Source: Myxococcales bacterium (lineage in GTDB: Bacteria; Myxococcota; B64-G9). Taken from it: a stretch of DNA of 50,085 nt. Both the position numbers and the translations under genes were made by a program. Where the stretch lies: assembly GCA_012798435.1 (NCBI GenBank), contig JAAZNF010000117.1, positions 1 to 50,085 of the forward strand, given 5' to 3'. The notes beneath the pieces were generated by a model. The model saw nothing but the letters and a program-made list of their open reading frames with translations. It was not told the origin of the DNA and did not search any database. Positions 4,560 through 41,391 of the stretch are shown in pieces (position 1 is the stretch's first letter; each line of letters opens with the position of its first letter).

Positions 4560-5120
4560 ATGCCCATTTACGCTTTCGAGGATCGCCGACCGGTAATTGC
4601 CGAATCTTCATACATCGCTCCCTCGGCGCAAGTCATTGGTGACGTGAGTATCGGCGCACGGTGCTACGTTGGCCACGGCGCCATTTTGCGCGGCGACTAC
4701 GGTGCCATCGTGATCGGAGATGAGACCGCCATCGAGGAAGGTGTCATCGTTCACGCTCGTCCAGAGGATCGCACGACTATAGGTCGTCGGGTCACGCTCG
4801 GGCACGGAGCCATGGTTCACAATGCGACCATCCTTGATGGAGCGGTGATCGGGATGCGGGCGGTGGTGAGTGACTTCGCCGAGGTCGGGGAAGGCGCCAT
4901 CGTGGGCGAAATGGGGCTTGTGAAGAGCAAACAGAAGATCCCGCCGCACAAGGTCGCCCTGGGGATCCCCGTGAAAGTGGTGGACGACGTGGGAGAGCGC
5001 CATGACATGATGACTCGCCGCGCCAAGCAGATCTATGTGGATCTCGCCGCGAGATACCTCGCAGGTGGCATGGTTGAGATTGGGCCACAGACTGCGAGCC
5101 AGCGGGAAGGTTGCAGATGA
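4560..5120 (+). CDS. Gamma-class carbonic anhydrase-like protein (PaaY/CaiE type hexapeptide repeat)
   Basis: The 186-residue protein is a left-handed beta-helix of hexapeptide repeats followed by C-terminal helices. The Arg-Gly-Asp turn (LRGDYG), the His of VIVHA and the two His of LGHGAMVHN match the zinc ligands and core of gamma carbonic anhydrases. The end IPPHKVALGIPVKVV is typical of PaaY/CaiE proteins. GGAAGG precedes the ATG by eight bases. CO2 hydration or an acyl-related role are both possible. The stop overlaps the rhodanese signal-peptide start (ATGA). Confidence 0.88.
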   Translation: MPIYAFEDRRPVIAESSYIAPSAQVIGDVSIGARCYVGHGAILRGDYGAIVIGDETAIEEGVIVHARPEDRTTIGRRVTLGHGAMVHNATILDGAVIGMRAVVSDFAEVGEGAIVGEMGLVKSKQKIPPHKVALGIPVKVVDDVGERHDMMTRRAKQIYVDLAARYLAGGMVEIGPQTASQREGCR

Positions 5121-27413: not shown

Positions 27414-29240
27414 GTGTCCACTCGACACGCTTACCGGCGGCCCCGGCTGGACTCGTTGCACGGCCGGTGCCTGGACGCGAAGCGCGCCGCGCGCCTGCGC
27501 GAGCTGGCCTCCGCCTACCTGGAGCTGGGTCAGCCGGCGGCGGCGGCGGAGATCCTCAAGGGGGCGCTGGTGCTGGACAACACCCGCGCGGTGGCCCGGG
27601 TGTGGCTGGCGCTCTCTTTGTACCGGCAAGGAGACTTCGCGCAGGCCCTGGCCTGGCTCGAGGGCCCGCCGGCAGGGGAGGGGCCCGAACGCTGGTTTTT
27701 GTCGGGGTTGGTGCTGCGGGATCTCGGTCGCCTTCCCGAGTCCCTGGCGGCGCTGGGCCGGGCGCTGGCCGCCGACCCGGCGTTTCCGGATGCATACCTC
27801 GAGCGGGGGCGGATCCTGCTGCGCCTTGGCCGGGCGGCGGAGGCGCTGGCGGAGGCCGGGCGGCTGCTCGAGGCACGCCCCGGCGCAAGCACGGGGCTGC
27901 TGCTGCGCGCCCGCGCCTTGCTGGCCCTGGGCCACGCAACCGAGGCGGCCGCGGTGGTGCGGGAACTCCCGACGGCGCAGCGCTCCTTCGAGGCGCTGGA
28001 GCTCCTGATCCGCGCCCTGCGGATCGGCGGCGCACCGGACGGCGAGGTCGACGCGGAGTTCTCCACCGCCCGGGAGCGGCTTTCCGCCGACGCCCGGGTG
28101 GAGCTTCTGTACGCTCGAGATCTGATGCTGCGTTCGCTCGCCGATCCGGGGGCGGCCGAGCGCGCCGAGGGGGTGTTGCGGCGACTGCTGGAGAGGCCCG
28201 CGCTGAGCGATGCCACGCGCGCCACGGTGTGCTTTTCGCTCTCGGAGCTGCTCGCCCAGGAGAACCGCGATCCCGAAGGGGCCCGGCGCATGCTGGAGCA
28301 GGGCCTGTCGCTTGCGCCGGATCACCCCCAGGGGTTGCTGGCCCGGGCCAGCCTGGAGCTCGGGCGCCGCCGGCCGAGCCGCGCTCTGCGAGACTTGCTG
28401 CGTGTGCTGCTGGTCGATCCACAGGAGCCCCGCCTGCCGCTGCTGCTCGCCCGCGCGCTGGTAATCATCTCGGACGACGAGGCGGTGTCCGGTTTCTTGG
28501 GGCTATTGCTCCACGCCGTGCCCGCCGAGGCGCCGGCCTTGCTGACCCGCGTGCTGCGCCTGACGGAAGAAGAGGGCCGGGCCGCGGCCCTGGAGGACGT
28601 GCGCCGCGAGGCCCACCGCATGAAGAACCGCCTGGCGGTGCTCGCCGCGAATCTTACCGACGATCGGCAAGGCGAGGTGCGGGAGCGGGCGCAGGAGCTG
28701 TATCGAGATTGGGCGGCCTTCCTCAAGACCCTGCGCGCGGCTCCGGAGCGCGTGCAACCGCTGGACCCGGCCGACGTGCTGCGGCGGGCCGTGCAGGAGG
28801 CGGCGGGAGACGCCGGGCGCATCGCCTGCTCGCTCCCCGGGGACCTCCCGCTCGTCCAGGGGGATGTCGCGGCGTTGGCCAGCGCGCTGGCCAACGTCCT
28901 TCGCAACGCGCTGGAGGCCTCGCCGCCCGGACAGGCGATCGAGGTGCGGGTCCGATCGCGGGACGAGGGGCGGCGGGTGGAGTTCTGCGTCATCGACTTC
29001 GGTCCCGGGATCGCGCTTGCCGATCAACCCCTGGTATTCGAGCCGGGGTTCAGCCGCAAGCCGTCCGGCAGCGGCCTGGGCCTCTCCGTCGCCCGCGCGG
29101 TCGTGCTGGGACACGGGGGCCGGCTGCGTCTGGCCAGCGCTCCGGGAGGCCCGACCACGGTGACCATCGAGCTTCCGGCCCTGGGCGACATCCTTGGCCG
29201 GGGAGAGGAGCCTCATGGGCGGACGGGTGTGGCTGGTTGA
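27414..29240 (+). CDS. TPR-histidine kinase (soluble), probable partner of the next gene
   Basis: The ~608-residue protein has TPR-type repeats (about 15-420; repeated LxxxxAAxxxLxxAL patterns), then a kinase core. The H-box is in EAHRMKNRLAVLAANL, the N-box in LANVLRNALEASPPG, and the G boxes in FGPGI and SGSGLGLSVARAVVLGHGG. No membrane helix is seen, so it senses inside the cell or by partner binding through TPRs. The start is uncertain because GTG 27414 has no good ribosome site. The gene overlaps the next start by 26 bases, which pairs it with that NtrC-type regulator. Confidence 0.85.
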   Translation: MSTRHAYRRPRLDSLHGRCLDAKRAARLRELASAYLELGQPAAAAEILKGALVLDNTRAVARVWLALSLYRQGDFAQALAWLEGPPAGEGPERWFLSGLVLRDLGRLPESLAALGRALAADPAFPDAYLERGRILLRLGRAAEALAEAGRLLEARPGASTGLLLRARALLALGHATEAAAVVRELPTAQRSFEALELLIRALRIGGAPDGEVDAEFSTARERLSADARVELLYARDLMLRSLADPGAAERAEGVLRRLLERPALSDATRATVCFSLSELLAQENRDPEGARRMLEQGLSLAPDHPQGLLARASLELGRRRPSRALRDLLRVLLVDPQEPRLPLLLARALVIISDDEAVSGFLGLLLHAVPAEAPALLTRVLRLTEEEGRAAALEDVRREAHRMKNRLAVLAANLTDDRQGEVRERAQELYRDWAAFLKTLRAAPERVQPLDPADVLRRAVQEAAGDAGRIACSLPGDLPLVQGDVAALASALANVLRNALEASPPGQAIEVRVRSRDEGRRVEFCVIDFGPGIALADQPLVFEPGFSRKPSGSGLGLSVARAVVLGHGGRLRLASAPGGPTTVTIELPALGDILGRGEEPHGRTGVAG

Positions 29241-30591
29241 CGATCAGGCCGAGGTGCGCGAGCTGCTCCAGCGCCTCTTTTCCGCGCGGGGATGGGAGGT
29301 GGCGGCCTTTCCCGGGGCGGAGGAGCTGCTGGATGCGCTCCCGGCCCAGGAGCGCGCCGACCTGGCGGTGCTGGATCTGGACCTGGGCCCGAATCGCATG
29401 GACGGGCTGGCCCTGCTGCAACGCCTGCGGCAGGCGCTGCCCGACCTGCTGTCGGTGATCCTGACCGGCAAGGGCGGAACGGACGACGCGGTGCGGGCCA
29501 TGCGCGCCGGAGCCGCCGACTTCATCGAGAAGGATCCGAGCCTCGGGCAGCGACTCGACGTGCAGATGGCCAAGCTGGACCGAATCCTGGCCGTCATCGA
29601 GGACAACCGGCGGCTGCGCGAGCAGAACGAGGAGCTACGCCGGCGTGGCGCCTGCCTGGAGATGATCGGCGAGAGCCGGGCCATGCGAGCGGTGCGGGAC
29701 AAGGTGCGGCGCCTGGCCGACATCCCGCGGCCGGTGCTCATCCTGGGCGAACGGGGCACCGGCAAGGAGCTGGTGGCGCTCCACCTGCACCGCGAGGGCG
29801 CCCGGCGGGCGCGGCCCTTCGTGACGGTGAACTGCGCCGCCCTGCCGGACACGCTGGCCGAGGCGGAGCTCTTCGGCTGCGAGCCGGGAGCCTTCACCGA
29901 CGCGCGCCGCACGCGGGCCGGGCGTTTCGCGCAGGCCGACGGCGGCACCCTGTTCCTGGACGAGATCGGCAACATGTCGTTGAGCACGCAGCAGAAGGTG
30001 CTGCGGGCCATCGAGTACCAGACCTTCGAGCGGGTGGGCGGCGGCAGCCCGCTGCGGGTGGACGTGCGGGTGTGCGCCGCCACCAACGCCGACCTTCCGG
30101 TCCGGGTGCGCGAGGGGACGTTTCGGGCCGACCTCTTCGACCGGCTGGCCTTCGACACCATCCGCTTGCCGCCGCTGCGGGAGCGGCGCGAGGACATCCC
30201 CCTGCTGGCCCGCTTCTTCTTGCAGCGTTTCCGCGAGGAGGTGGCCGGGGTGCGCTGCCGCTCCATCTCCGATTCGGCGCTCGCATCGCTTTCGCGCGCC
30301 GACTTTCCAGGCAACGTGCGCGAGCTCAAGAACCTCGTCGAGCGGGCCGCCTACCGCTGCGACGAAGAGATTCTCCAGGATGGGCACTTCGATCTATCGC
30401 CGCCGGCGGTGCGGGAGGCGGGGAGCGGGGGAGCGTTCGCTGAACGGGTGGCGGCCTTCGAATCGCAGCTGCTCCGGCAAGCCCTGGAAGCGGAGGGCGG
30501 ACACCTGGGCCGGGCAGCGAAGCGGCTCTCCCTCAGCTACGACCAGATGCGCCGGCTCTTGCGCAAACACAAACTTCGCGTCGGTTCATAG
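29215..30591 (+). CDS. NtrC-type sigma54 response regulator with GAFTDA motif
   Basis: The 458-residue protein has a receiver domain (1-120; VLDLDLG phosphoacceptor region, ILTGKG), an AAA+ domain (about 140-370) with GERGTGKE Walker A, and a C-terminal helix-turn-helix (about 415-455). The sigma54-contact loop reads GAFTDA (225-230) where GAFTGA is nearly universal. GAGGAG precedes ATG 29215. A near-consensus sigma54 promoter sits just downstream at 30696, before pspA-like genes, and is the probable target. Paired with the TPR kinase. Confidence 0.92.
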   Translation: MGGRVWLVDDQAEVRELLQRLFSARGWEVAAFPGAEELLDALPAQERADLAVLDLDLGPNRMDGLALLQRLRQALPDLLSVILTGKGGTDDAVRAMRAGAADFIEKDPSLGQRLDVQMAKLDRILAVIEDNRRLREQNEELRRRGACLEMIGESRAMRAVRDKVRRLADIPRPVLILGERGTGKELVALHLHREGARRARPFVTVNCAALPDTLAEAELFGCEPGAFTDARRTRAGRFAQADGGTLFLDEIGNMSLSTQQKVLRAIEYQTFERVGGGSPLRVDVRVCAATNADLPVRVREGTFRADLFDRLAFDTIRLPPLRERREDIPLLARFFLQRFREEVAGVRCRSISDSALASLSRADFPGNVRELKNLVERAAYRCDEEILQDGHFDLSPPAVREAGSGGAFAERVAAFESQLLRQALEAEGGHLGRAAKRLSLSYDQMRRLLRKHKLRVGS

Positions 30592-30695: not shown

Positions 30696-30711
30696 CGGCA
30701 CGACGCTTGCA
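30696..30711 (+). promoter_or_regulatory. Sigma54 (-24/-12) promoter of the psp/flotillin operon
   Basis: CGGCACGACGCTTGCA matches the consensus TGGCACG-N4-TTGCA at all but the first base, with GG and GC ten bases apart. The predicted start is near 30722, before the AAAGGAGAAG site and ATG 30773. Confidence 0.85.
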
Positions 30712-30772: not shown

Positions 30773-31498
30773 ATGGGAATCCTATCGCGCATCAACGACA
30801 TCATCCGCTCCAACCTCAACGATCTGGTGAGCAAGGCGGAGAACCCGGAGAAGCTGCTGTCCCAGGCCATCCTGGACATGGAGCGCCACCTGCAGAAGGC
30901 ACGGGAGCAGGTGACCGACACGGTGGCCTCCGAGAAACTGCTTCAGAAGAAGCGCGACGGCGCCCGCGAGAAGGGCCTGCGCTGGGAGCGGCGCGCCGAG
31001 CTGGCTCTACGCGCCGGCGACGAGGAGCTGGCCCGCCTGGCGCTGCAACGCCGCCTGGAGCAGGAGGAGCTGGAGCACAGCCTGGAGGAGCAGGTGAAGG
31101 TGCAGCGGGAGTACGTGGGCGCGCTGCGCCAGAGCCTGCTGTCTCTGGAGGAGAGGTTGCGGGACGCCCGCACCCGGCGCGACGGGCTCATCGCCAGGGC
31201 GCGCTCGGCGAGACTCCGCCGCCGCATCGGCGACACCCTGTCGTCCACCGGCAAGCGGCGCGGCCCCGGCGAGCGGGCCTTCGAGACCTTCGAGCGCATG
31301 GAGGAGCGCATCCTGGCGCTGGAGGCCCGGGCGGAGGCGCTCGGTGAGGCCGGCGCCCCGGCCCCGCGCGTCTCGGCAGAGCCCGACTTGGAGGCGCGCT
31401 TCGTGGCCATCGAGCGGGGCCAGAGCGTGGAGGCGGCGCTGAAACGGCTGCGAGCCCAGATGGCCGCGCCGCCCGCACGCAAGCGCGCCGCGGATTGA
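30773..31498 (+). CDS. PspA/IM30 family membrane-stress protein
   Basis: The 241-residue protein begins MGILSRINDIIRSNLNDLVS, the amphipathic helix of PspA/IM30. It is then almost entirely coiled coil (about 25-190), with a variable Pro/Ala linker and a final helix. PspA binds stressed inner membrane, forms ESCRT-III-like assemblies and can restrain its activator. It lies directly behind a sigma54 promoter, as in E. coli, though its regulator here is a two-component NtrC type. AAAGGAGAAG gives a strong ribosome site. Confidence 0.93.
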   Translation: MGILSRINDIIRSNLNDLVSKAENPEKLLSQAILDMERHLQKAREQVTDTVASEKLLQKKRDGAREKGLRWERRAELALRAGDEELARLALQRRLEQEELEHSLEEQVKVQREYVGALRQSLLSLEERLRDARTRRDGLIARARSARLRRRIGDTLSSTGKRRGPGERAFETFERMEERILALEARAEALGEAGAPAPRVSAEPDLEARFVAIERGQSVEAALKRLRAQMAAPPARKRAAD

Positions 31499-31552: not shown

Positions 31553-32248
31553 ATGGGGATCCTGGAGCGAGCGCGGTATCTGATGCAGGCCGATCTGAGC
31601 GACCTGCTGCGCCGGGCCGCCGACCCGGAGGCGGTACTCGAGGGCTACCTGGACGATCTCGATCTGCTGATCGCGGAGGCCCGGCGGCTGCGGGCCGCCG
31701 AACAGGCGCAGCGAGATCGAGAGGATGCCCGGGTGCGGGATCTTCAACAGGCCCAGCGCACCTGGGAGGCCAAGGCGCGTTTGTGCCTCGAGCGCGGCGA
31801 CGAGGATCTGGCGCGCTCGGCGTTGGAGCACAAGCTGGACATGGCCGAGGAGGCCGCCGAGGCGCGTGAGGAGCGGGAGCGGCTGGACCAGGGGCTCAGG
31901 GTGTTCGACGATCAGCTGCTCGCGCTCGAGGCGCGGCGCGAGGAGGTCGTCAAGCTGCGGCGGGAGATCGCCCGTCGCAAACAGCGAGCCCGGGCGCGCC
32001 TGGAGCTGCAGCAGGCGCTCCAGCGATTGGGTTCGGCCGATGAGGCGACCCCGGCCAAGGAAGCCCGCGACGAGTTGGACGAACTGCAGAGCCGGCTCGA
32101 GGCCAGCGAGGAGATGCGAGGCGAGGAGCTGTCCGAGCGGATGCTGCGCCTGGAGGCCGCCGATCGGCGGCGGCGGCGCAAGGCGGCGGTCGAGGCCGAG
32201 TTGTCTTCGTTGCGACGCGCCGTGTCCGGCGGGAGGAAGCCCCGGTGA
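31553..32248 (+). CDS. Second PspA/IM30-like coiled-coil protein
   Basis: The 231-residue protein starts MGILERARYLMQADLSDLL, again PspA-like. It is helical throughout (about 20-215) with Glu/Arg-rich heptads and a basic C-terminus. It is more diverged than the first copy. It could co-assemble with it or act as an adaptor. It ends in a GTGA overlap with the next gene, so the unknown downstream protein is made with it. Confidence 0.85.
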   Translation: MGILERARYLMQADLSDLLRRAADPEAVLEGYLDDLDLLIAEARRLRAAEQAQRDREDARVRDLQQAQRTWEAKARLCLERGDEDLARSALEHKLDMAEEAAEAREERERLDQGLRVFDDQLLALEARREEVVKLRREIARRKQRARARLELQQALQRLGSADEATPAKEARDELDELQSRLEASEEMRGEELSERMLRLEAADRRRRRKAAVEAELSSLRRAVSGGRKPR

Positions 32249-33024
32249 TCGATGCGCTGAAGATGCAGGAGGCGCTGGTGCGGGCCACCGGCTTCACGGC
32301 CGAGCAGGTCCTGGAGGCCGCGGGCCGCCACCCAGGCGAGCTGGCGGCGTCGTACCGACACGCGCTCGGACGCCACCGCACACTGGTCGGAGACAAGCAG
32401 GAGGCGCATCAGGTGGAGCGCGACCGACTGGACTCCTGGCTGGGCGCGCTGCTCGGGGAAGGAGGGCTGTTGTTCTTTGGCGGCCACCTGCTGCGCATCC
32501 TGACGCCGTGCCTGCGCGCGGCGGTGATGTTCCGGTCGAAGCACACCCACCCCGCCGGCTGGCTCCAACTCCGGCTGGAGTTGGCCGCGGCGGCCGACGG
32601 TTGCTACTGGAACCTGCAAAAGACCCCGATCCCGTTCGACGGCTTCGACCTCGGCGAGAGGTTGCAGCGCCTGGGGCGCATCGCCGGCGCGCGCCAGGAG
32701 ATGGACCAGCAGGCCCGCGGCCTGATGTGGCTGGACGTGGAGGCGCGGGCGGCTTCTGGCGCCGGCAGGGTGCTCGAGCTGTTGTCCGGAAGGGAAGCCG
32801 GCCACCACATCTTCGAGCAGGCGCGCTGTCTGCTGGATCCGTCCCGGCGCTCGGCGCGGGAACGCCTGGCCTGCGCCCGCGGCGTACTGGACCTGGCGGG
32901 CCAGGCCGGCAGCCTGGAGGTGGCGCGCCGTTGTCAAGTGGCCCTGTACCAGATCGGCGAGGTGGCGGCGGTCGATCCCAGCCCGGATCGAGCCGGACGA
33001 AGCCCAAGGAGGAGCCCATGTTGA
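32245..33024 (+). CDS. Unknown protein of the psp/flotillin operon
   Basis: I do not recognise this 259-residue protein. It is mostly helical and soluble, with one hydrophobic patch (LLFFGGHLLRIL, about 74-85) that could lie on a membrane. It carries conserved-looking aromatic and Cys positions (ADGCYWNLQKTPIPFDGFDLG, spread over ~118-138). The start is the GTG overlapping the PspA-like stop, and its end overlaps the NfeD/YqiJ-like start by seven bases. That position implies a role in membrane stress. Confidence 0.75.
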   Translation: MIDALKMQEALVRATGFTAEQVLEAAGRHPGELAASYRHALGRHRTLVGDKQEAHQVERDRLDSWLGALLGEGGLLFFGGHLLRILTPCLRAAVMFRSKHTHPAGWLQLRLELAAAADGCYWNLQKTPIPFDGFDLGERLQRLGRIAGARQEMDQQARGLMWLDVEARAASGAGRVLELLSGREAGHHIFEQARCLLDPSRRSARERLACARGVLDLAGQAGSLEVARRCQVALYQIGEVAAVDPSPDRAGRSPRRSPC

Positions 33025-33656
33025 CCCTGTATGTAATCTGCCTTCTGGTGGGCGTGGTGTTCGCGGTGCTGTCGTTCGTGTTCTCGGGGTTCTTCGAGTC
33101 TCACGTGAGCGCGGACGCGGACGTGGGCGGCGCCGAGATCGGGGGCGACGCGGGCGGGGACGCCGGGATAGGGGACGTGCACTTCCCCTTCATGAGCCCG
33201 GTAGTGCTGGCCACCTTCGTCACCTTCTTCGGCGCGGGCGGGCTGATCGGCCTCAAGGCCTTCGGCTTCATGCCGGGCCTGAGCGTGCTGGTGGCCCTGG
33301 GCGTGGCCACCGGGGTGGCCTTCCTGGCGGGCGTGGGGATGGTCAAGCTGCAGCGCTCGCTAGAGACCAACGCCGTCACCACCGCCCAGAGCCTGATCGG
33401 CACGCAGGCGGAGGTCACCGAGAACATCCCCGGCAACGGCGTGGGCGAGATCTCCTTCTCGGGCAAGGGCACCCGCATCACCGGCCCGGCCCGCAGCGAG
33501 GAGAACCGCGACATCGCGCGCCACGCGCTGGTGACCATCACTCGGGTGGTGGGCGGCCTGTACTACGTGCGCGAGCACGTGGACGAGAAGCTGCGCAACG
33601 TCCAGGTCCCCACGGACGACGGCGCGGCCGCGGGCGGCGGCGAGGAGAAGAAATAG
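33018..33656 (+). CDS. YqiJ/NfeD-like membrane protein with OB-fold domain
   Basis: The 212-residue protein has an N-terminal TM helix (about 3-25), an acidic Gly/Asp loop (about 30-52), two further helices (about 57-112) and a C-terminal OB-fold (about 120-195; IGTQAEVTENIPGNGVGEISFSGKGTR region). YqiJ and NfeD proteins are the usual partners of flotillins. The ATG follows GGAGGAG by five bases. Directly upstream of a flotillin gene, it probably anchors or shapes the flotillin assembly. Confidence 0.87.
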   Translation: MLTLYVICLLVGVVFAVLSFVFSGFFESHVSADADVGGAEIGGDAGGDAGIGDVHFPFMSPVVLATFVTFFGAGGLIGLKAFGFMPGLSVLVALGVATGVAFLAGVGMVKLQRSLETNAVTTAQSLIGTQAEVTENIPGNGVGEISFSGKGTRITGPARSEENRDIARHALVTITRVVGGLYYVREHVDEKLRNVQVPTDDGAAAGGGEEKK

Positions 33657-33678: not shown

Positions 33679-33714
33679 AGTACCTTCGGCCATAAACTCT
33701 TGAGGAGGTGCCTC

Positions 33715-35244
33715 ATGTCGGGCGGATGGACAGCGGAAATCCTGCGCGGTGTGTCGGGGCAGAACTTGCAGGACGTCATCGGCAACTTCTGGATCTGGGG
33801 CGTGGTCCTGGCGGTCCTGGTCCTGTTCATCTTCCTGGTCATGCTGGTCAAGCGCTACCAGAAGGTCGGCCCCAACGAGGCGCTGATCATCTCGGGCAAG
33901 ACCCGCGGCGGCATTCCCAAGGTGGTGCACGGCGGGGGCGCTTTCGTGTGGCCGGTGATCCAGAAGGCCGAGGTGCTCAGCCTGGAGGTGATCACCATCG
34001 ACGTGCGCACCCCCGAGGTGTACACCGAAAAGGGCGTGCCCATCATCGTGGACGGCATCGCCCAGATCAAGGTGCACGCCACCGACGAGGCCATCCGCAC
34101 TGCCGGCGAGCAGTTCCTGGGGCGCGGCCGCAACGAGATCATGAACGTGGCCAAACAGACGCTGGAGGGCCACCTGCGCGCCATCCTGGGCCAGATGCAA
34201 GTCGAGGACATCTACAAGAACCGCGAGATGTTCGCCACCAAGGTGCAGGAGACCTCGGCCACCGACTTCGCCAAGATGGGCCTGGAGATCGTGTCGTTCA
34301 CCTTGCGCGACATCAAGGACAACGAGGGCTACCTCGAGGCGCTGGGCAAGCCGCGCCTGGCCCAGGTGAAACGCGACGCGGTGGTGGCCCAGGCCGAGGC
34401 CGACCGCGACTCGGTGATCAAGTCGGCTCAGGCCAAGCAGGCCGGCGAGACCGAGCGCTACAAGCAGGAAACCCAGATCGCCGAGGCCAACCGCAGCTAC
34501 AACGTGAAGCTGGCCGAGTACCAGATGACGGTCAATGAGAAGAAGGCCGAGGCCGACCTGGCCTACGATCTCTCCAAGTTCAAGAAGGCCCAGCAGGTGA
34601 AGAAGGAAGAGGTGCAGGTGGAGGTGATCGAGAAGGAGCAGCAGATCGTGGTGCAGGAGCGCGAGATCGCCCGCCGCGAGAAGGAGCTGGAGGCCACCGT
34701 GAACAAGCCGGCCGACGCCCGGCGCTACGCGGTGCAGGCCCAGGCCGAGGCCGAGCGCTTCCGGTTGGAGGCGGAGGCCAACGGTAAGGCAGCGGCCAAG
34801 AAGGCCCAGGGTTTCGCCGAGGCCGAGGTCATCGCGGCCACCGGCAACGCCGAGGCCGAGGCCACCAAGGCGCGCGGCCTGGCCAAGGCCGAGGTCATCC
34901 GGGCCCAGGGCTTCGCCGAGGCCGAAGCCATGGCCAAGAAGGCCGAGAGCTGGAAGCAGTACAACGAGGCGGCCATCACCCAGATGTTCATCGAGGTGCT
35001 GCCCGAGCTGGCGCGGGCCATCGCCGAGCCGCTCACCAAGACCGAGCGCATCGTGGTCGTCAACACCGGTGGCGAGGGCGGCGGCGTCAGCAAGATCACC
35101 GGCGACGTGGCCCAGATCATCGCCCAGCTTCCCCCGGTGGTGGAGGCGCTCTCCGGCGTCAACATCTCCGAGCTCATCAAGCGCCTGCCGGGGATCGGCG
35201 GCGGCAAGGGCAAGAGCGAACGGTCTCCAACCTCTCAGTCCTAG
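33715..35244 (+). CDS. Flotillin family protein (YqiK type)
   Basis: The 509-residue protein has an N-terminal membrane helix (about 26-48), an SPFH/band-7 domain (about 50-210; VGPNEALIISG, TEKGVPIIVDGIAQIKV) and a long Ala/Glu/Lys coiled coil (about 215-420) with repeated AEAEA patterns. A Gly-rich tail ends it. Flotillins organise membrane microdomains and often work with NfeD-type proteins. GAGGAGG lies six bases before ATG 33715. Confidence 0.94.
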   Translation: MSGGWTAEILRGVSGQNLQDVIGNFWIWGVVLAVLVLFIFLVMLVKRYQKVGPNEALIISGKTRGGIPKVVHGGGAFVWPVIQKAEVLSLEVITIDVRTPEVYTEKGVPIIVDGIAQIKVHATDEAIRTAGEQFLGRGRNEIMNVAKQTLEGHLRAILGQMQVEDIYKNREMFATKVQETSATDFAKMGLEIVSFTLRDIKDNEGYLEALGKPRLAQVKRDAVVAQAEADRDSVIKSAQAKQAGETERYKQETQIAEANRSYNVKLAEYQMTVNEKKAEADLAYDLSKFKKAQQVKKEEVQVEVIEKEQQIVVQEREIARREKELEATVNKPADARRYAVQAQAEAERFRLEAEANGKAAAKKAQGFAEAEVIAATGNAEAEATKARGLAKAEVIRAQGFAEAEAMAKKAESWKQYNEAAITQMFIEVLPELARAIAEPLTKTERIVVVNTGGEGGGVSKITGDVAQIIAQLPPVVEALSGVNISELIKRLPGIGGGKGKSERSPTSQS

Positions 35245-35268: not shown

Positions 35269-36498
35269 ATGCGGGAAGACATCCTGAGACGCAACCGGGA
35301 CTTTCTGGCGCGCGGCAAGGGCCCGCGGCTTCCCGAGCCCGGCACGCAGCCTCGCCTGCTGGTGGTCTCCTGCTCCTGTCCGGAGCTGAACGGCGTGCTC
35401 AACGCCGCGCTGGGGCTGATGCCGGGGGAGGCCTTCTTCGTCCGCCTGGCCGGGGCCTGGGGCGGCCGCCAGGCCAGAGAAATGCTGCGCTCGGTGGCGG
35501 TGGCGCTGGAGTACCTGGACTTCCCGTCGGTCCTGGTGGTGGGCCACGAGCCGTGCCGCTGTCTGGAGGCCTCCAGCGTGCAGGCGCGGCGCGTGCTCTC
35601 CCGCGTCGCGCGCGGTGACGCGGACGGGGACGAACCCCCGGTGGACGTGGAAGGTTGGCCCGCCACGCCTGCCGAGGCGGTGGTCGAGACGGTGCGGCGG
35701 CTGCGGCCGCTGCTGCCGGCCTCGCAGGGAGGGGAAGTCCTGGGCGCCATGCTGGAACTGCCCTCCGGGCGGATCCATTTCCTGTCGGATGACAGTCCGG
35801 ACGGCGGCGAGAATGCGCAGGAGGCCCGAGCCGAGGCCGACGCCGAGCAGGAATCCGAGTCGAAACCGATCGCGGAGGTGGATCTCCCGCCGCTGCCACC
35901 GTTACCGGACATTCCACTCCCGGAGATCCCGGAAGTGTCCGTCGAGGCGCCGGTGCCGGCCGAGGCCCCGGGCAAGCCGAAGAAACCGGTTTTCGCCTAC
36001 GGACAGGTCCCCGGCGCGGGGCCGGTGGCGATGGTTGCCTTCCAGGCCCCGGTGGCGGAGAAGGTCCTGGTCAAGAAGGCGCCGCCAGGCAAGGCGGCCC
36101 TGGAGGCCGCCCCGGCCGCGCGGGCCACGCAACCAGCGGCTCGGGTGCGGGTGGCGCCGCAATCCAAGCCGACATTCCCGCAGGCGAGCCCGGTGCCAAA
36201 GAGCACGAAGAGCGGCGAGACGTACGCCAGCGACCTCCTCTCCGCGCTACCCCAGATCAAGCGGGTGATGTGGCAGAACCTCCCCATGGAGCACATCCAG
36301 TCCATCCGGCGCGACGTGCGCTCGGCCATCGACGCGAACCGTTCCAGCGAAGAGATCGTGAAGACCTTCGTCTCCGGGCTCTCACCGCTCGGCCAGAAGC
36401 GCCAGCTCATCCGAAGTGAGCTGAATCTCCTCACCGACGTGCTGGCGGGAACCGAAGAGGAATTCGTGGCTTCGGTGATGGAGGGGCTGCTCGACTGA
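35269..36498 (+). CDS. Degenerate beta-carbonic-anhydrase-like domain fused to a disordered linker and helical C-terminal domain
   Basis: The 409-residue protein starts with a beta-carbonic-anhydrase-like domain (about 1-115). RLLVVSC, ALGLMPGEAFFVR, SVAVALEYLDFPSVLVVGHEPC fall in the family order. The zinc ligands Cys35, His93 and Cys96 are kept. The Asp-Arg pair that should follow Cys35 (C-x-D-x-R) reads C-x-C-x-E, so catalysis is doubtful. Residues ~180-320 are Pro/Ala/Glu-rich and disordered, and ~325-409 is a helical domain. As the last gene of the psp/flotillin operon it may be a structural or sensing partner. Confidence 0.7.
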   Translation: MREDILRRNRDFLARGKGPRLPEPGTQPRLLVVSCSCPELNGVLNAALGLMPGEAFFVRLAGAWGGRQAREMLRSVAVALEYLDFPSVLVVGHEPCRCLEASSVQARRVLSRVARGDADGDEPPVDVEGWPATPAEAVVETVRRLRPLLPASQGGEVLGAMLELPSGRIHFLSDDSPDGGENAQEARAEADAEQESESKPIAEVDLPPLPPLPDIPLPEIPEVSVEAPVPAEAPGKPKKPVFAYGQVPGAGPVAMVAFQAPVAEKVLVKKAPPGKAALEAAPAARATQPAARVRVAPQSKPTFPQASPVPKSTKSGETYASDLLSALPQIKRVMWQNLPMEHIQSIRRDVRSAIDANRSSEEIVKTFVSGLSPLGQKRQLIRSELNLLTDVLAGTEEEFVASVMEGLLD

Positions 36499-39795: not shown

Positions 39796-39969
39796 CATCA
39801 TGACCCGAGAGCCTGATGAGATGGTCCCGCGCAGGCTCGAGTGTCGCCGAAGGATAAGCGGCCGAGATCGTACGCTTTTTGGCCAGGAATACGGTTCAGC
39901 CGATTCATATCTTCGCGTTGCCGAACACGCCCGGTTCAACCGGGCCGGCTCATGTCGTGGAGGTCTGGT

Positions 39970-41391
39970 ATGGAAGGCGAAGGCAAGGATGAGGCGACGA
40001 TATCGGTAGAGACCGTCATCGAGCAATTCAAGCAACGGCTTCCCGGCATGCTCGGAGACGCCTTGCTCGAGGTGGACGGGTACTGCCAGCTCTTGGATCG
40101 ACTCGAGGAACTCGCCGAGCGCATCGACAAACTGGAGGTGACGGTGCGGGATCTGCGCGCCTCGCCACTTTCGGTCGCGGCCGCAGCGCCGGTGGCCGCG
40201 CCCACCCCGCCCCTCGCGCCGGTGCCGGCGGCAGCACCGGTAATCTCCGGGCCGGTCGGTTCGGGCCTGCTGCGGCGCCGCCCGATGCGTTCGCGCAACC
40301 CCATCGCGCCGACGGTTGTGACCATCCGCTCCGAGCCGCGCGCGCCGGTCCTGCCCGTCAACCCGCCCGGCTCGCCGCTGGCCCGCGCGGTGGTGGACAG
40401 CGTCTCCCAGGAGACGCCCGCGCCGGCGCCGGCTGTCCCGCCGGCCGCCTCTCCGGACATGGAGGAGGTCGAGGAGGTCAAGCCCGAGGAGGGCAAGGAC
40501 CCCAGGCTGTGCTCCGAACCGGGCTGCGATCGCCCCGCGCGCTCGCGGGGGTTGTGCTCGGCGCATTATCAGCGGTTACGCTACCGGGAGAAAAAGATCG
40601 GTGCCCGCATCGAGCCGCGCCCGGCCATGCCGCCCATCCCGGCGGGGGCCTTCGGCCTGCCGCCGCCGCCGAGCACCTCGCTGGGGACGGTGCCGTTGCC
40701 CAAGGTGGCGCCCCAGGGCACCGTGCGCCGCGAGGGCGGCACCAAGGGTATCTTCGCGGTTCTCTACGAGGAGCGGGGCCGGCGCACGCTGGCGGGGCTC
40801 ATCAACCAGATCCGCCAGGACCGGCACGAGCTGGTGGACCGGGTGAACCAGACCTTCGCCGGGTTGCCGGGCACGCCGCTGGAGGAGGAAGACGTGCTGC
40901 GTGCGGTGCACTACCACAAGCTCGGCGACGCGCTGCTGCGCCGCGAGTGCGACGTCATCCGGCGGGCCTTCCAGCGCAACCGGGGCAGCCTGGCCAAGGC
41001 CGCCCAGCAGCTCAAGAGCGATCCCGAGCGCCTGCGGGCCCGCATCCAGGAGCTCAAGATCTCCGAGGACATCACCCGCATCCGCGCCTCGTTCTCCGAG
41101 GCCATCCTGTCCCAGGCCACCTTCAAGGAGCGGCTCGACCTGGCGCTCACCCGGGAGAAATACCTCGAGGACCTGGGCATCGAGAACGAGGTGGACGCCT
41201 CGCTCAAGGCCGACCTTTCACGCGAGCGCGAGAAACTGGGGGAGGGTGCCACCCTGCTCCAGGCCGCCGAGAGCCTGAAGACCAACCTCGGCCTGGACGA
41301 GGAGCGCTACCGGCGCATGCTGCGGCGCTTCGGTCTGGCCCCGGAGGCCTCCATGGAGGCCCCGGCAGCCTCGACCCCGGAGAGCGCGTGA
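39970..41391 (+). CDS. Putative regulator with a Cys/His zinc site and Fis-like helix-turn-helix
   Basis: The 473-residue protein has an N-terminal helical part (about 1-60), a Pro/Ala-rich linker (about 65-175), a small zinc-finger-like motif (CSEPGCDRPARSRGLCSAHY, about 180-199: C-x4-C-x9-C-x2-H), another linker, and a helical C-terminal part with a Fis/HTH_8-like helix pair (IRRAFQRNRGSLAKAAQQL, about 328-346) and a long coiled coil. GGAGG lies eight bases before ATG 39970. I recognise no named family; myxobacteria have proteins with similar linkers. DNA or RNA binding is inferred. Confidence 0.7.
   Translation: MEGEGKDEATISVETVIEQFKQRLPGMLGDALLEVDGYCQLLDRLEELAERIDKLEVTVRDLRASPLSVAAAAPVAAPTPPLAPVPAAAPVISGPVGSGLLRRRPMRSRNPIAPTVVTIRSEPRAPVLPVNPPGSPLARAVVDSVSQETPAPAPAVPPAASPDMEEVEEVKPEEGKDPRLCSEPGCDRPARSRGLCSAHYQRLRYREKKIGARIEPRPAMPPIPAGAFGLPPPPSTSLGTVPLPKVAPQGTVRREGGTKGIFAVLYEERGRRTLAGLINQIRQDRHELVDRVNQTFAGLPGTPLEEEDVLRAVHYHKLGDALLRRECDVIRRAFQRNRGSLAKAAQQLKSDPERLRARIQELKISEDITRIRASFSEAILSQATFKERLDLALTREKYLEDLGIENEVDASLKADLSREREKLGEGATLLQAAESLKTNLGLDEERYRRMLRRFGLAPEASMEAPAASTPESA

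Follow-up and report, generated by a model that had tools for sequence, protein, structure and literature searches.

Why would a carbonic anhydrase domain be kept at the end of a flotillin operon after its catalytic residues have been replaced? This question is raised by a 409-residue open reading frame in a Myxococcales bacterium (GenBank assembly GCA_012798435.1, contig JAAZNF010000117.1), of which positions 1 to 50,085, here called the window, were analyzed. The features discussed are listed in Table 1.

Table 1. Features of the window, with the intervening gene of four relatives in the last line.
Feature	Position	Strand	Basis or remark
Gamma-carbonic-anhydrase-like hexapeptide protein	4566-5099	+	PDB 8gpm E=2.5e-32; VHAR and GHGAMVH histidines
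TPR-histidine kinase, just before the regulator	27420-29240	+	Pfam HATPase_c 1.2e-22, TPR; start codon uncertain
Sigma-54 activator response regulator (receiver, AAA+, Fis HTH)	29194-30591	+	Pfam
Candidate sigma-54 -24/-12 site CGGCACGACGCTTGCA	30696-30711	+	1 mismatch; about 65 nt before PspA1
PspA/IM30 family protein 1 (PspA1)	30776-31498	+	Pfam 3e-42
PspA/IM30 family protein 2 (PspA2)	31553-32248	+	Pfam 1.4e-15
Protein conserved in the operon, between PspA2 and NfeD	32245-33024	+	Homologues at the same place, 27-33% identity; no Pfam or NCBIfam match
NfeD-like membrane protein	33018-33656	+	Weak Pfam NfeD match, E=0.016; syntenic homologues in the family
Flotillin (FloT type)	33700-35244	+	Pfam Band_7 6e-36, Flot 7e-10; NCBIfam FloT 1.6e-152, below its cut-off
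Pseudo-carbonic-anhydrase fusion gene, 409 aa	35269-36498	+	Intact ORF; homologues in 11 other genomes
Beta-carbonic-anhydrase domain, residues 1-172	35269-35784	+	Pfam, PDB 1g5c, AlphaFold2 and Foldseek
C35-S-C37-P-E39	35371-35385	+	Zinc Cys kept; catalytic Asp to Cys, catalytic Arg to Glu (sequence, alignments)
H93-E-P-C96-R-C98	35545-35562	+	Zinc His and Cys kept, Cys98 extra (sequence)
Disordered Pro-rich linker, residues 173-314	35785-36210	+	pLDDT below 50 across most; disorder predicted for about 175-317
Linker motif LPPLPPLPDIPLPEIPE	35884-35934	+	Conserved in alignments of the window's family, G005 included
Five-helix C-terminal domain, residues 315-409	36211-36495	+	pLDDT 77-91 in the window model
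Protein matching the WRKY19 zinc finger model	39841-41391	+	E=1.1e-6, above cut-off; weak Fis-type helix-turn-helix match
Short TPR gene between flotillin and pseudo-carbonic anhydrase, four relatives	L012:7487-7978; L013:7500-7964; L016:7520-8020; L014:3-416		

Fold and former active site

The amino-terminal part of the protein matched Pfam family PF00484 (Pro_CA; E=1e-6, scoring 29.5 bits where 25.7 is the cut-off) and, over residues 3-171, the sequence of PDB entry 1g5c (E=7e-9). An AlphaFold2 model of the window protein found the same structure in Foldseek (E=3.7e-10, TM 0.73 by target length), and all of the top matches were beta-carbonic anhydrases and their COS/CS2-hydrolase relatives. 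The model was built on a seven-sequence alignment and reached a mean pLDDT of 63 and a pTM of 0.41, and trust in it is therefore limited to its domains, amongst which the carbonic anhydrase domain scored about 75-85. Homology of this domain to beta-carbonic anhydrases is far beyond chance. The preliminary description had proposed such a fold for residues 1-115, with a disordered linker and then a helical end attached; the layout was borne out and no fold of another kind appeared, but the domain, which is alpha/beta in the model, runs on to about residue 172.

The zinc ligands of the Cys-His-Cys type, C35, H93 and C96, are present in the sequence with the numbering first given to them. In the alignment with 1g5c, however, the C-x-D-x-R motif lies opposite C-x-C-x-E, and Cys37 and Glu39 stand in place of the catalytic Asp-Arg dyad, whose loss had been proposed from the beginning. 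Judged by these residues, the window protein shares the fold and zinc positions of Cab-type beta-carbonic anhydrases but lies outside the enzyme family because the dyad is absent; it differs from them additionally in its added linker and helical domain and in its flotillin operon. The only four cysteines of the whole protein (35, 37, 96 and 98) are all located at the former active site. Identity as a COS or CS2 hydrolase was considered and rejected, with E-values of 0.03 and 0.79 for 3vqj and 3ten where 1g5c gave 7e-9.

For the C-terminal domain, the best Pfam match had E=0.015 and came from one member, and no PDB sequence matched below E=0.02. A model of this domain from a relative was confident (pLDDT 90.6, pTM 0.82), and despite this the best Foldseek match had E=0.87, and its assignment to a known fold was rejected. 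The window copy is only 18-24% identical to those of its relatives, which share 48-63% among themselves, and the flotillin of the window is 77-85% identical to theirs. The C-terminal domain of the window has thus evolved far faster than that of any relative in the family, and its flotillin has not.

Operon and relatives

Upstream of the gene, PspA, PspA, the unassigned conserved protein, NfeD and flotillin follow one another on one strand, with the pseudo-carbonic anhydrase gene last and 24 nt after flotillin. Together with the sigma-54 regulator, this composition, supported by Pfam, NCBIfam and synteny, agrees with the membrane-stress operon that had been suggested. One -24/-12 match such as the candidate site before PspA1 is expected by chance in the window alone, so the evidence for it consists of its position and of its recurrence: five relatives carry a site with 0-2 mismatches in the corresponding region. 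Neither sigma-70 promoters nor terminators were detected above chance.

Homologues were sought in 195 genomes of the phylum and by scanning genome contigs, and the gene was identified in eleven further genomes, all of them draft or metagenome assemblies. In ten of these eleven the homologue is the next gene after flotillin or is separated from it by one TPR gene, and the fusion that the preliminary description suggested looking for beside flotillin genes is thus present in other genomes; in the eleventh, flotillin falls off the contig. The order from regulator to pseudo-carbonic anhydrase is kept in the window's family wherever the contig allows, and the gene likewise follows flotillin in G181, G182, G183 and G189. 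Orthologous flotillin loci carry the gene in 11 of 12 cases (the exception being G011), and among ten further flotillin loci nothing matched convincingly, the best hit reaching E=0.003 and 11 bits. A profile of the C-terminal domain found no convincing match outside the same 12 genomes. The scan of GTDB species contigs, which used a single C-terminal pattern that diverged members elsewhere may escape, returned six loci, all in Deltaproteobacteria/Myxococcota MAGs already covered by the phylum search. The short TPR gene that separates flotillin from the pseudo-carbonic anhydrase in G001, G003, G004 and G006 is lipoprotein-like in some of them and is absent from the window.

Operons combining PspA, flotillin and YuaF/YqiJ (NfeD-like) genes are known (PMC11237479, PMC9239133), and the PspA, NfeD-like and flotillin genes of the window are grouped in the same way. 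Carbonic anhydrase is absent from the main text of both Psp surveys, and our literature search found no paper linking carbonic anhydrase, flotillin and phage shock. The operon itself is of a known kind, and its new partner is the pseudo-carbonic anhydrase, which neither survey describes in its main text.

Stepwise decay of the active site

The former active site was compared across the relatives (Table 2). Two outgroups retain the full C-x-D-x-R/H-x-x-C site. The window and G003 have kept the zinc ligands, with Cys in place of Asp and an acidic residue in place of Arg. Apart from the window protein, eight members, G003 included, have a carbonic anhydrase domain in which the dyad or its Arg is missing, and six of these eight are without zinc ligands they once had. 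In G005 the domain itself is gone; the linker motif and C-terminal domain are kept, and an ATG stands behind AGGAG shortly after the flotillin stop codon.

Table 2. Motifs of the former active site in the window protein and in related proteins.
Genome	Motifs	Remark
G181	CVDPR/GHTDC	Outgroup, full C-x-D-x-R/H-x-x-C site
G182	CVDPR/AHSDC	Outgroup, full C-x-D-x-R/H-x-x-C site
G183	CSDPS/AHTAC	
Window	CSCPE/GHEPC	
G003	CCCAD/GHDGC	
G007	ASCPE/GADQA	
G008	GAGPD/GASGA	
G004	DSNPA/GFQAC	
G006	DSSPE/GHAGS	
G001	PSSPL/GLDGD	
G189	PAHPW	H-x-x-C absent

A profile of the zinc-less members still matched 1g5c (E=5e-21). Within the family, Pfam recognized Pro_CA in just three proteins, those of the window and G003 and the product of an unrelated second gene in G001; annotation therefore misses most members. 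The single-domain CVDPR-type carbonic anhydrases at L053 (G038) and L056 (G074) have no flotillin close by; they branch alongside the fusions whose site is intact and may represent the state before the fusion.

In the trees built from flotillin and from the concatenated operon, G003 is joined with G006 (99/98 and 100/99) and, more weakly, so are G001, G005, G007 and G008 (83/93). The carbonic anhydrase domain tree joins G004 with G006 (93/92), and trees from the C-terminal domain alone did not resolve. Since the window and G003 still have the triad, and on the assumption that a ligand once lost does not return, zinc ligands disappeared at least three times (in G004/G006, in G001-G007-G008 and in G189). 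The change from Asp to Cys probably preceded the loss of zinc, since the Cys is common to the window, G003 and G007; because several nodes did not resolve, this order of events is likely rather than proven.

Role of the retained domain

The conserved locus, together with the survival of the linker and C-terminal domain in G005, points to a flotillin/PspA role carried by the C-terminal part, for which the carbonic anhydrase core would be a dispensable scaffold. We give an even chance to the reading that the protein is a pseudoenzyme accessory of the PspA-NfeD-flotillin membrane-stress operon, acting as a cytosolic scaffold or adaptor. A carbonic anhydrase would have been joined to the linker and helical domain and fixed behind flotillin; the window's lineage would have exchanged the catalytic Asp for Cys and the Arg for an acidic residue while keeping the zinc ligands. 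Zinc that had become merely structural could then have been lost in several lineages, and the whole domain deleted in one. Beta-carbonic anhydrases are dimers, and a core that may likewise be dimeric would, once the stress regulator has turned the operon on, use the long linker to present the helical domain to assemblies of flotillin or PspA.

The state of the zinc can be anticipated from closed type II beta-carbonic anhydrases, in which the Asp serves as a fourth zinc ligand and blocks activity, as with Cys42, Asp44, His98 and Cys101 of E. coli CynT2 (PMC7321114). Because Cys37 aligns with this Asp, the simplest expectation is a permanently closed, inert Cys3His zinc site that would be structural and incapable of CO2 hydration. 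The likeness to CynT2, a fourth protein ligand closing the site at the C-x-D position, is drawn here from the alignment, and the two differ in that the Asp closure is reversible with pH whereas the Cys closure is predicted to be permanent. The nearest precedent for a beta-carbonic anhydrase domain that is kept but dead is the second, C-terminal domain of CsoSCA from alpha-carboxysomes, which has lost its zinc site and activity and is kept structurally (PMC12918739). CsoSCA, however, pairs its dead domain with an active one in the same chain; the window protein has no active domain, its zinc triad remains, and its partner system is flotillin/PspA.

One point speaks against the adaptor reading, namely that the C-terminal domain presumed to bind the partner has drifted in the window while flotillin was conserved, and the zinc-bearing core may therefore matter more in the window's lineage. 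For this reason a zinc/thiol switch has to be weighed, in which oxidation would make a Cys3-4/His zinc-thiolate center in the window protein release zinc or form disulfides, thereby signaling redox or metal stress to the flotillin-PspA system. The clustering of all cysteines at the former active site, the Cys37 substitution common to three genomes and the retention of the zinc-bearing domain during C-terminal drift are in its favor; six relatives at the same locus without zinc ligands, a seventh without the domain, and the absence of Cys98 even from G003 weigh against it, and overall we consider it unlikely. The more specific version, in which a Cys3His (possibly Cys4) zinc-thiolate site, created by the change at the catalytic Asp, would let flotillin/PspA assemblies be switched by redox state or zinc, with the window and G003 as living intermediates between enzyme and zinc-free scaffold, appears distinctly unlikely. 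Given the losses among the relatives, zinc holding or the sensing of CO2/bicarbonate or redox state, as the preliminary description considered possible, is not supported as a family trait, and a zinc/thiol role may apply to the window protein and to G003.

A domain that is still an active or altered enzyme, with some CO2 hydration left or a reaction like that of COS/CS2 hydrolases and in either case an altered proton path, would agree with the intact zinc triad, the full site of outgroups at the same locus and a genome search that found no other beta- and no alpha-carbonic anhydrase. It is nevertheless very improbable given that both dyad residues are replaced, that a Cys occupies the position of the closed-form Asp ligand, that COS and CS2 hydrolases fit worse than carbonic anhydrases and that close relatives have lost the zinc ligands. 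The genome also contains the gamma-carbonic-anhydrase-like gene, whose three histidines, as far as the motif shows, stand at the zinc-ligand places of that class; its product is a likely source of carbonic anhydrase activity in this genome. A relic under little or no selection, with only the linker and C-terminal domain mattering, would explain the repeated loss of active-site residues and the deletion in G005. Such a relic is unlikely in view of stop-free open frames in eleven genomes, 16 invariant columns in seven family sequences against 6.1 +/- 2.4 expected from a simple equal-rate simulation, and a Trp64 that is invariant across the window's family and absent from the outgroups; in the window lineage, moreover, the drift affected the C-terminal domain and not the carbonic anhydrase domain.

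Altogether, the pseudoenzyme family is real and recurrent, with an unusually complete record of decay, and an adaptor function would fit it. The death of an enzyme can be read in steps at one locus of related genomes, from full site to lost dyad, lost zinc and missing domain, and this series makes the purpose of keeping a dead enzyme directly testable. Bacterial flotillin/PspA operons gain an undescribed partner, bearing a helical domain without a Pfam or PDB relative.
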